The position numbers were made by a program, and so were the translations under genes. The notes under the pieces are model-generated. The model worked only from the letters and a program-made list of their open reading frames with translations, was not told the DNA's origin and searched no databases. This document shows positions 53,252 through 55,448 of a DNA stretch of 64,000 bases, one piece after another. Positions within the stretch are counted from its first letter, which is position 1. Every line of letters starts with the position of its first letter. The stretch comes from Acidovorax sp. GBBC 1281 (lineage in GTDB: Bacteria; Pseudomonadota; Gammaproteobacteria; Burkholderiales; Burkholderiaceae_C), in contig NZ_CP097269.1 in assembly GCF_028473645.1 (NCBI RefSeq), positions 4,420,001 through 4,484,000 on the forward strand. Reading direction: 5' to 3'.

Positions 53252-53326
53252 CTCCTCGTAGTTCAATGGATAGAACGAGTGCCTCCTAAGCGCTAGATAC
53301 AGGTTCGATTCCTGTCGAGGGGACCA
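53252..53326 (+). tRNA. tRNA-Arg (anticodon CCT)
   Basis: A 75-nt cloverleaf with encoded CCA. The acceptor stem CTCCTCG pairs with CGAGGGG (one wobble), the D arm is GTTC/GAAC, the anticodon stem AGTGC/GCGCT flanks the loop CTCCTAA with CCT as anticodon, and the T arm is ACAGG/CCTGT with TTCGATT. It reads AGG codons. Confidence 0.95.
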
Positions 53327-53346
53327 GATTTCCTTCTTTTAGCGCA

Positions 53347-53874
53347 ATGGCTTTTCGCCTCATCCTTGCTGCCGCCGCCTGTGCGCTGCCTCTTTCCGCG
53401 TCGGCTGAGGTGTATCGCTGCGGAAAAACGTACACCGACGAGCCATGCAAAGGCGCGAAGGTCATCGACACCTCGCCGATCATCAGCGATCCGAGTGGCC
53501 CGCGAACCAAGGAAATCTACCTCTGTCGCGCGCCCCAGGGCGGGTTGTACTGGACCGCCGAGCACTGCGCGCAAAGAGGGTGGACCATCGAACGGATTCA
53601 GCGGGTGCCTGCCAACGTGCCGTGGAATGACCAAGTGGAGGCCGGCAGGCATCAGAAGGCGCAAGCCGAGGCAGATGCGGCTGCGCCCATTCAAAGCCAC
53701 GCCCTACCAGCACCACAGCCCTCCCAGGCCAACAACGGCACATGCTCTGCGCTGGAAGAGCGGGTCAGGATGCTGGACAGCATGGGGCGGGCCGGCAGCC
53801 GGTACTATGACCTGGACTGGGTGAGGCGGGAGCGCAAAGATGCCAGGGATCAGCAGCACAGGCTCCGTTGCTGA
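53347..53874 (+). CDS. DUF4124-like exported protein
   Basis: A 175-aa protein starting 20 bp after tRNA-Arg. The signal peptide ends at ASA-EVYRC. The mature start, VYRCGKTYTDEPCKGAKVI, has the DUF4124 pattern (YRC, YTD, PC). The C-terminal half is helical (LEERVRMLDSMGRAGSRYYD). Six cysteines suggest disulfides. Function unknown. Confidence 0.8.
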   Translation: MAFRLILAAAACALPLSASAEVYRCGKTYTDEPCKGAKVIDTSPIISDPSGPRTKEIYLCRAPQGGLYWTAEHCAQRGWTIERIQRVPANVPWNDQVEAGRHQKAQAEADAAAPIQSHALPAPQPSQANNGTCSALEERVRMLDSMGRAGSRYYDLDWVRRERKDARDQQHRLRC

Positions 53875-54096
53875 GACGGGGTGCGCCATCGCCGAATTGA
53901 CGGCGTGACGAGCGACCTCGCACGAGGCATCGGCCTATCGTGGGAAGTTTTTCCACAAGCCTGTCGTTGAGCACGCGCCCAGTTCGAACAAGCTGTTCAT
54001 GTCATCCGTGCGCTGGCCTTTCAATGGCGCCATGACGCGGCTTTCCCAGCAAGACTCCAGTGAAAGGACTCTCTCGGGATCTGCCACGCGCTGCAC

Positions 54097-54948
54097 TCAG
54101 GCAGATCGCCGCCGATGCCATGCCAGCAGCCCCAGCAATGCCGTCAGCATCGCCAAGCCGAAGTGCGACAGCGTGGGAATGGCGGCGGCGCTGGTCGGCA
54201 CCGCGGCGAGCAACGCCGGCCCGCCCGGATCGGAGATCGTGCCCACCGCCGGATCGGCGTCCCCCGGGCCGTTGTCCTCGATGTCGAAGGTCACCGTGTC
54301 CCCATTGATCTGGGCGCCCGGCCATTCGAACCACTCCGACTGCGCTGCGCCCGCCGTGCGCGGGCCGTACTTCATGAAGCGGCTGCCCGCTGCCAGCGCC
54401 TGCGGGTACTTCAACGTTACGGTGACCTTGCCCGCGCAGGTGGTGGCCACGAAGCGGAAGACGCCTTGGGGAAACTGCGCGCCCGCGGGGCGGCTGGATG
54501 GCACCTCGAACGCGGTCTGCGCGGTGTCGAACGTGCAACCGCTCACGCCGGTCAGCGACGCGGTGATCTGCCCACTGCCGGCGGGCGACGCACCGGTGAA
54601 CGCATCCTCGATGCCCGCAACGCGCACCACCAGATGCAGGGTCGATTCCTTCTGGATGTTGTAGTCCGAGAGGGTTCGGCCGTCTTCCAGTTGCTTGCCC
54701 GCGAAGATCAGCCGCTGCTGCTCGGGCGCAATGCCTTCCTGGTCCTGGATCTTGGCCTTCACGTTCTCAATCGAGTCGCTGGGCTCCACGTCCAGAGCGA
54801 TGGTCCTTCCGGAGACGGTTTTCACGAAGATCTGCATGGCCCACGCGCCCTGCGAGAGGGCGGCGAGCGCAATGAAGAGGGCCCATCGGGCAGCCCATCT
54901 CCGAATATCCAGAAAGGGGGGAACAGGCGGGGAGAACGCAAAAACCAT
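54097..54948 (-). CDS. Exported ubiquitin-like protein with choice-of-anchor U-like domain and IPTL-CTERM tail
   Basis: A 283-aa protein. Residues 1-37 are a signal peptide ending ALSQGAWA. Residues 38-113 are a ubiquitin fold, [18 protein letters not shown] then [20 protein letters not shown], identical to human ubiquitin at 63 of 76 positions by direct alignment from memory. K6, K27, K29, K48, K63, I44, H68 and V70 are kept; K11 is Arg, K33 is Gln, and R74-G75-G76 reads A-G-I. A choice-of-anchor U-like domain (about 114-245) with [10 protein letters not shown] and MKYGPR follows. The [20 protein letters not shown] helix and RRR tail is an IPTL-CTERM sorting signal. Ubiquitin should therefore be exported and anchored, with native Met1 exposed. 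No strong ribosome-binding site is seen at the ATG at 54948. Confidence 0.9.
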
Positions 54949-55187
54949 GGATCAACTGGCAGCAGGTCGAAAAAGACCCGGGATCATGCGTTTCTGACGG
55001 GTTTCTTACAAGCGTTCCAGCCCTGGATCTGCGGAAAGTCGCGTTTTTTAAGGGGCTTGCGCCAGCAGGCCGTCGATCACCCGGGGCAGGCCGCCGCCGG
55101 TGAGCGGGCGCAGCGCATGGCGACGAGCCGGAGTTTCCAGGGACGGTCGGTCCAAGGCATGCGGGGTCAGCGCCCGCAGACCACGTC

Positions 55188-55448
55188 TCAACGGCTGAGC
55201 ATTGCGACGACCGCGACGATGCCGAGCACCACCACCGCCACCGCCCGCGCGGCCCAGCCGCCCAGGCTGGCGGCGGTCATCCCGGCAATGCCGGCTTTCA
55301 CGGTACCGGCGTGGCGGCCCTCATGGGTGCCGGATTCAAAGGCAGAACGCCTGCTGATGGCCATCGCCTGGGGATGGCCGCAGCCGGGGCAAGCGGTCGC
55401 CTGATCGGAAATCTGCCGGTTGCATTCGGGGCATGGAACGAGTGCCAT
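55188..55448 (-). CDS. Zinc-ribbon membrane protein
   Basis: An 86-aa protein. An N-terminal zinc ribbon has CPEC (C6, C9) and CPGC (C20, C23). A basic linker and a C-terminal hydrophobic helix (about residues 62-84, VAVVVLGIVAVVAMLSR) follow. It is probably anchored in the inner membrane with the ribbon in the cytoplasm. Function unknown. The 239-bp gap between it and the ubiquitin-like gene shows no feature. Confidence 0.8.
   Translation of the reverse strand: MALVPCPECNRQISDQATACPGCGHPQAMAISRRSAFESGTHEGRHAGTVKAGIAGMTAASLGGWAARAVAVVVLGIVAVVAMLSR

Follow-up and report, generated by a model that had tools for sequence, protein, structure and literature searches.

To our knowledge, ubiquitin is treated in textbooks as a protein of eukaryotes only, and BfUbb of Bacteroides fragilis is the one bacterial ubiquitin for which we know of an antibacterial action. 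Elsewhere in bacteria, ubiquitin-like conjugation operons encode E1/E2-like partners and act in the cytoplasm, and in the ubiquitin extension proteins of cyst nematodes, the extension follows Gly-Gly and is released there. In the sections of PMC5705921 used here, B. fragilis is described as 'one of a few bacteria' to possess a eukaryotic-like ubiquitin, and an immunity protein against BfUbb is thought by its authors to be unneeded; sensitivity to BfUbb hinges on a single residue in a peptidyl-prolyl isomerase (Jiang 2024, as cited in the part of PMC12396204 used here). Exosortases, whose substrates carry a C-terminal sorting tail, have been proposed to set such proteins free for joint export with exopolysaccharide (PMC1569441, in part), and the exoproteome of a cyanobacterium is altered in an exosortase mutant (PMC12188702, in part).

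The DNA considered here, hereafter the window, is a stretch of 64,000 nucleotides from Acidovorax sp. GBBC 1281 (NZ_CP097269.1, positions 4,420,001 to 4,484,000). All coordinates below are positions within it unless an accession or locus is given.

A eukaryotic-type ubiquitin in a bacterial gene

A first-pass annotation of the window had reported a near-complete eukaryotic-type ubiquitin without naming a strand, and this is borne out on the minus strand, on which positions 54610-54837 translate into 76 residues that align without gaps to human ubiquitin with 63/76 identities, 61 of them among the first 70 residues; the plus-strand translation of the same positions bears no resemblance to ubiquitin. 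The K48 to K63 region, claimed to be intact, is indeed so, as the whole stretch from 41 to 70 is unchanged. The differences from the human protein are L8V, T9S, K11R, T14A, E16D, T22S, K33Q, P37A, D39E, L71V, L73V, R74A and G76I. In 2000 shuffled controls of the same residues, identities to human ubiquitin reached 16/76 at most. The segment is a member of the Pfam ubiquitin family PF00240 (100.5 bits against a cut-off of 25.4, E 4.5e-29, positions 1-70 of 72) and is matched by single-copy ubiquitin chains in the PDB at about 131 bits. A widespread, vertically inherited bacterial beta-grasp family no closer to ubiquitin than to ThiS/MoaD had been named as the finding that would overturn the assignment; ThiS/MoaD families are absent from the 11 Pfam matches at E up to 1, and 63/76 residues are identical to human ubiquitin. 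Apart from the gene in the window, the 5.7 Mb source genome has no PF00240 match, and 14 control genomes have none.

The C-terminus of the segment reads VVRVAGI where the human protein has VLRLRGG. Residues 74-76 are thus A-G-I and are followed by 170 more residues, and the Gly75-Gly76 pair of a conjugatable ubiquitin is lacking, so that this ubiquitin would not serve as a conjugation tag. The E2 family PF00179 has no match in any of 17 Paracidovorax genomes, that of the window included, and the control genomes are likewise silent; E1/E2-like conjugation partner families are also missing from the seven neighbour genes scanned.

Architecture of the protein

The first-pass annotation left out the rest of the protein, which includes a choice-of-anchor U domain and an IPTL-CTERM tail. 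The features of the locus are as follows.

54097..54948, minus strand: whole gene, 283 aa, with ATG at 54948-54946 and stop at 54099-54097 (open frame and its translation)
54838..54948, minus strand: predicted Sec-type signal peptide, residues 1-37, ending SQGAWA (hydrophobic stretch, small residues at -3/-1; model helix 11-32)
54610..54837, minus strand: ubiquitin domain, residues 38-113 (PF00240; identity to human ubiquitin as above)
54490..54609, minus strand: start of a beta-rich carrier, residues 114-153 (model strands 115-120, 127-133 and 146-148; alignable in relatives)
54211..54489, minus strand: choice-of-anchor U domain, residues 154-246 (NF041766, 84.6 bits, cut-off 32, E 6.6e-24)
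54106..54186, minus strand: IPTL-CTERM sorting tail, residues 255-281 (PF18203, 33.3 bits, cut-off 20.8; TIGR04174, 31.9 bits, cut-off 20.5)
53252..53326, plus strand: tRNA-Arg (CCT), at a distance of about 0.8 kb from the gene's 3' end (ARAGORN)

The signal peptide was called by a simple rule of a hydrophobic stretch and residues -3/-1 rather than by SignalP, and its predicted cleavage site directly precedes ubiquitin Met1. At the other end, the tail consists of IPTLSHFG, a hydrophobic helix and a basic end, and with both of its profiles above cut-off, the protein combines a signal peptide with a C-terminal IPTL-CTERM domain. An AlphaFold2 model from an alignment of 15 sequences (mean pLDDT 81.6) predicts a signal helix at 11-32, the ubiquitin strands and helix at 38-108, a beta-rich part at 115-247 and a C-terminal helix at 262-282, the relative arrangement of these parts being unsure because the pTM is 0.50. 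A promoter scan around the gene found no sigma-70-like site.

Distribution and genomic sites in Paracidovorax

By protein similarity, the window belongs to Paracidovorax, a genus of mostly plant-associated bacteria, and 17 genomes of this genus form the comparison set. The closest named relatives of the protein are found in Acidovorax sp. SUPP2825, Paracidovorax valerianellae, P. konjaci and P. cattleyae. The gene is patchy, being present in 10/17 genomes at three sites: that of the window, shared with G011; a second in G002, G003, G004, G005, G006, G007 and G014; and a third in G015. The orthologue in G011 lies at the same site between flanks that are about 94% identical. When ten window genes were compared with L108, L109, L111 and L116, chosen to represent the other sites, the ubiquitin gene alone was in common, and no operon or immunity partner shared between sites was found (0/9 other window genes). 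As the flanks of the second site exist in 17/17 genomes, it is the ubiquitin gene itself that comes and goes. The site in the window follows the tRNA-Arg, which marks the edge of a region varying between species; in G015, flank comparison places about 4.9 kb of other DNA between the tRNA-Arg and the counterpart of position 55192. The stretch 53327-55192, after the tRNA-Arg, differs among Paracidovorax species and is possibly an insertion hotspot.

None of 50,697 phage records carries a match, and 3/72,556 plasmid records do, one of them well. The latter is a 420-kb plasmid of Ruminococcus albus 7, on which NC_014824.1:388198-388422 encodes a ubiquitin family protein 81% identical to the domain in the window. 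Large replicons of Pseudoalteromonas hold ubiquitin-like segments of 54% (NZ_CP077771.1:864532-864708) and 50% identity (CP076682.1:832935-833108), which sit within an Ig-like domain protein and a tandem-95 repeat protein.

Sorting machinery and carrier module

The source genome encodes XrtH (TIGR04177, 252.6 bits, cut-off 86), which we take to be the enzyme for IPTL-type tails, in a frame adjoining that of an XrtH-associated membrane protein (XrtH_assoc, 160.2 bits). The sorting tail and its presumed enzyme are thus found in one genome, which has 4 IPTL-CTERM proteins. In a profile search, an exosortase was detected in 8/10 ubiquitin-positive vs 0/7 ubiquitin-negative Paracidovorax genomes, a contrast between related species and hence not 17 independent draws. 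The two ubiquitin-positive genomes in which the PF09721 search detected none are G005 and G015; this profile matches exosortases weakly (29-35 bits against a cut-off of 25.7), so that absences are uncertain and some enzymes may be missed. IPTL-CTERM proteins occur in 14/17 genomes, 6 of which are without a detected exosortase.

The anchor U domain exceeds its cut-off at 29 places in 13/17 Paracidovorax genomes, several of them in much longer frames, and in L132, the single long protein that was scanned, bacterial Ig repeats are followed by an IPTL-CTERM tail. The carrier module is therefore used elsewhere. With residues 112-283 as the query, 11/11 proteins found carry ubiquitin, the window's own among the 11, more distant anchor U proteins without ubiquitin lying beyond the reach of this search. 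Proteins of Haliea and Chromatocurvus (Halieaceae) have the signal, ubiquitin and anchor U in common with it at 45-46% identity. In databases, the names given to relatives of the window protein do not go beyond 'IPTL-CTERM sorting domain-containing protein' and 'ubiquitin-like protein'.

Ubiquitin heads in other bacteria

Ubiquitin had been called rare in bacteria, which holds per genome and fails in breadth. With Paracidovorax excluded, matches of PF00240 above its cut-off number 4 in a family sample of 299 genomes, 3 in an order sample of 399, 1 in a class sample of 369 and 1, a weak one, in a phylum sample of 398; the samples overlap, and matches below the cut-off (three in the order, three in the class) are left uncounted. 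A pattern search of species-representative genomes returned 327 stretches encoding a relative. The best 80 of the 327 were kept, 21/80 from records not marked as metagenome-assembled, and together with the family and genus loci, they gave 94 loci with a strong ubiquitin match, reduced to 88 by removing three duplicates and three loci without a signal peptide that resemble contamination or something else. Labels on the 88 loci name 11 phyla, with 13 loci unlabelled and some bin labels doubtful; L010, labelled a cyanobacterium, closely resembles L011 from Methylophilaceae. Cultured carriers among the matches listed are Paracidovorax, Dyella, Rhodoferax, Saccharibacillus and Ruminococcus albus. 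On contigs L056 and L073 from metagenome bins, tandem or signal-less ubiquitin ends in RGG and resembles eukaryotic contamination.

A signal peptide ends directly before ubiquitin residue 1 in 84/88 loci (Ala at -1 in 78/84, at -3 in 60/84), a figure that is inflated, as the search started from a protein with a signal peptide and ranked proteins of that kind higher. Among nine profile-only matches outside the genus, inspected by eye, 5 have such a signal peptide, 3 have none and 1 is a weak match. The three without (L091 in G162, L092 in G034 and L094 in G095), all from the window's family, combine ubiquitin with a short, hydrophobic, basic-ended tail and have no signal peptide in frame; to judge by their sequences, they are possibly tail-anchored ubiquitins of a different layout.

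What follows the ubiquitin is varied. The families matched by 79 scanned proteins (the 94 less 15, long proteins being cut 800 residues past the ubiquitin and some perhaps matching several families) are the autotransporter barrel in 20, SLH in 6, OMP_b-brl in 5, the T9SS tail in 3, IPTL-CTERM in 7 and choice-of-anchor U in 5. Where only about 310-400 residues follow the ubiquitin, the passenger, judged from these lengths, must be little more than ubiquitin. In L007, L010, L011, L013, L020, L023, L028 and L066, a similar longer N-terminal signal region precedes the ubiquitin (by eye; ITFTSTA-like, then LSKV). Given the differing C-terminal parts, the arrangement looks as if a signal-ubiquitin block had moved between anchors.

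The 88 bacterial copies retain a median of 66/76 human-type residues, and V17, K27, L43, G47, L50, D58, Y59, N60, S65 and T66 are invariant, the last four or five having been favoured by the search patterns. At positions 73-76, human-type letters fall to 49, 30, 29 and 8%. Gly-Gly at 75-76 is found in 6/88 copies, and Gly at position 76 in 0/10 Paracidovorax copies. One of the six, L078:7863-8228 of Dyella sp. OK004, consists of just a signal peptide and a complete ubiquitin ending in RLRGG and a stop, and is conjugatable in principle. Four Clostridia loci, mostly from rumen or gut bins (L040, L055, L059 and L069), have a signal peptide, a ubiquitin with LRGG and an extension of 58-954 residues, two of the extensions being cut by contig ends; eukaryotic deubiquitinases might cut such a layout.

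Origin, age and selection

The bacterial copies were placed in a tree of 72 columns with 44 polyubiquitin units, which are presumed to be eukaryotic on account of their origin in tandem ubiquitins, some of them from metagenome proteins. In this tree, bacterial copies interleave with presumed eukaryotic ones, the bacterial label changes 20 times, at least 6 of these changes being forced by supported branches, and a single bacterial group appears in 0/200 bootstrap trees. L010 is identical over the 72 residues to one presumed eukaryotic polyubiquitin unit. One ancestral clade of bacterial ubiquitins is rejected weakly (AU p 0.031). With 76/128 branches open, the bootstrap unsettled and 72 columns to draw on, the tree supports several acquisitions in a number that is not countable, and bacteria have thus probably acquired ubiquitin several separate times.

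The relatively recent acquisition proposed in the first-pass annotation finds no support in composition or distribution. Third-position GC is 0.85 in the ubiquitin part, 0.88 in the rest of the gene and 0.70-0.95 in nine neighbour genes, so that the comparison of the segment with the rest of its gene, suggested there as a check, gives no sign of recent transfer. The composition is ameliorated and the acquisition not recent, and a recent transfer was rejected on this ground; the presence of the gene in 10/17 genomes agrees.

Strong selection to resemble host ubiquitin, the other proposal, stands in part. Between distant species, the domain is constrained: ubiquitin dN is 0.059 (dS 0.761) vs 0.322 (dS 0.721) in the rest of the gene for L001 and L082, and 0.082 (dS 0.673) vs 0.306 for L001 and L004, and the mean over 45 pairs is 0.106 vs 0.205. 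On the other hand, among the seven second-site species, ubiquitin dN is above that of the rest in 14/21 pairs (0.086 vs 0.034 for L004 and L089), below it in 6 and the same in 1, and the P. konjaci copy has only 47/76 human-type residues. Constraint between distant lineages and high dN in one group together indicate that the ubiquitin domain is kept overall, yet is changing quickly along one Paracidovorax branch.

Neither is the I44 patch specially conserved. With core and patches assigned from the known ubiquitin structure, patch sites have 6.78 changes per site on bacterial branches vs 5.90 at other exposed sites (p 0.78), and thus there is no sign of special conservation of the standard ubiquitin-binding face, in a comparison for which many copies may be too young and the set was gathered with sequence patterns. 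Buried core sites are slower, at 3.41 vs 5.90 changes per site for exposed ones (p 0.028). An apparently conserved face at 58-66 was dropped as an artefact, at least in part, since a 16-residue sequence and WAMQIFVK were among the search patterns.

Proposed function

The domain order, the lack of Gly-Gly, the XrtH in the genome and the constraint on ubiquitin between distant species can be read from the sequences themselves; for the window protein, we infer its cleavage, surface location and partner. A Sec signal peptide would be removed directly before ubiquitin Met1, so that the mature protein would start with a complete ubiquitin fold carried by the anchor U domain. The IPTL-CTERM tail would retain the precursor in the inner membrane until XrtH cuts, and the enzyme would then pass the protein to the cell surface or the extracellular polysaccharide. 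There, the ubiquitin would be a permanently fused, non-conjugatable binding head, most likely engaging proteins that bind or process ubiquitin in a eukaryote, plant or protist, encountered by the bacterium. That the protein is an exported, exosortase-sorted display protein with its likeliest partner in a eukaryote is a reading to which we give even weight. Display of a binding head would seem the most economical function. The domain order, XrtH, the co-occurrence with exosortases, the reuse of the carrier, the ubiquitin in 11/11 proteins found with residues 112-283, the Halieaceae relatives, the varied anchors, the closeness of bacterial copies to the human form (median as above), their interleaving with presumed eukaryotic ones and the low ubiquitin dN between distant species are counted for it; the unconserved I44 patch, the divergent P. 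konjaci copy, the 14/21 pairs, the lack of a detected exosortase in G005 and G015 and the IPTL-CTERM proteins of 6 genomes in which none was detected are counted against it.

As to the partner, a eukaryotic one is plausible because bacteria have taken up eukaryotic ubiquitin again and again and their copies have remained near it, and it is favoured, at about half of our confidence, over rival bacteria, which we consider only tentatively. A rival bacterium is plausible as partner because BfUbb, with the same signal junction and no Gly-Gly, mediates antagonism within its species against other B. fragilis strains (PMC5705921, in part). The window protein might then be an antibacterial protein that, released or through contact, harms related bacteria by binding a target in their envelope. 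The sharing of no other gene (0/9) between the three sites fits a toxin without an immunity partner, and the patchy presence in the genus points the same way. However, BfUbb is free and ends in Cys (PMC3352274, in part), whereas the window protein is fused to a carrier and a sorting tail; moreover, many bacterial groups have recruited ubiquitin and still have it near the eukaryotic form, which an antibacterial role does not call for. Such a role is possible but doubtful.

The lack of preferential conservation of the I44 patch, together with a core slower than the exposed sites and faster ubiquitin change in most pairs of one Paracidovorax group, speaks for a ubiquitin that binds nothing itself and only caps or spaces the carrier as a stable domain that folds fast. 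This is unlikely, since many bacterial folds could do the same job and one eukaryotic domain has apparently been recruited several times, in the examined loci nearly always as the head at the N-terminus. That the protein is an effector to be conjugated or processed by a host, in the manner of the secreted ubiquitin extension proteins of nematodes that parasitise plants, is highly improbable. The plant-associated habit of the genus would suit such an effector, as would the layout of signal peptide, ubiquitin and extension (PMC5705921, in part); yet the window protein has no Gly-Gly at 75-76, none of the 10 Paracidovorax copies has Gly76, without which a deubiquitinase would lack its normal site, and a sorting tail stands in place of a short peptide. 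Contamination or assembly error could come to mind for a sequence so close to eukaryotic ubiquitin, all the more as bins with L056 and L073 look contaminated, but it has next to no probability and is already refuted: the source is a 5.7 Mb two-contig genome, G011 holds the orthologue at the same site within its similar flanks, 10/17 species have a copy, and third-position GC is ameliorated.

A possible recurrent head on unrelated anchors

Taken together with the other loci, the display of a ubiquitin head, preferred above for the window protein, may be one case of a general class without a name. We think it somewhat more probable than its opposite that, in many phyla, ubiquitin has repeatedly been taken from eukaryotes and grafted directly behind a signal peptide, where it forms the exposed head on an existing surface anchor, and that these are surface-displayed, non-conjugatable ubiquitins acting as ligands between cells. 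The putative anchors comprise the autotransporter barrel, SLH domains, the exosortase tail, the T9SS tail and, by eye, wall-anchor-like tails. The genes are already annotated, with database entries named 'ubiquitin-like protein' and 'ubiquitin family protein'; a description of them as a class was not met in the open-access literature. There, by title and start of abstract and with subscription papers outside the search, surface-anchored bacterial ubiquitins or a Paracidovorax ubiquitin had no account; papers on BfUbb did appear. If the proposal is true, a recurrent head on unrelated anchors would suggest a new class of cell-to-cell ligands, these proteins would offer a natural set of conjugation-free ubiquitins in which binding is separable from tagging, and why bacteria keep acquiring ubiquitin would become directly testable in cultured bacteria.

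Comparison with known systems

The window protein shares most with BfUbb, rightly cited in the first-pass annotation as the precedent. Both are bacterial ubiquitins of eukaryotic type, with a signal cut at Met1 (predicted for the window protein), without Gly-Gly and present in some strains only (BfUbb as described in parts of PMC3352274 and PMC5705921). They differ in that BfUbb, according to the same parts, is a free, small protein ending in Cys, whereas the window protein is a 283-aa precursor in which 170 residues of carrier and sorting tail follow the ubiquitin, and is neither free, of ubiquitin size nor ended by Cys. With the cyst nematode ubiquitin extension proteins (PMC5705921, in part), it shares a signal peptide, a ubiquitin, a C-terminal extension and a plant-associated organism; the 12-residue extension of the nematode proteins is cut off in the plant, whereas in the window protein a carrier and a sorting tail make up the extension, and the Gly-Gly for a release of the nematode type is absent. 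Bacterial ubiquitin-like conjugation operons likewise have a ubiquitin fold in bacteria, but, unlike them, the window gene has no E1/E2-like family among its scanned neighbours. The overall plan is that of the PEP-CTERM/IPTL-CTERM exosortase substrates, with an N-terminal signal peptide, a C-terminal sorting tail, a lone gene and an exosortase in the genome; unlike the substrates described in the parts of PMC1569441 and PMC12188702 used here, and any met in the literature examined, the window protein carries a ubiquitin as its head.
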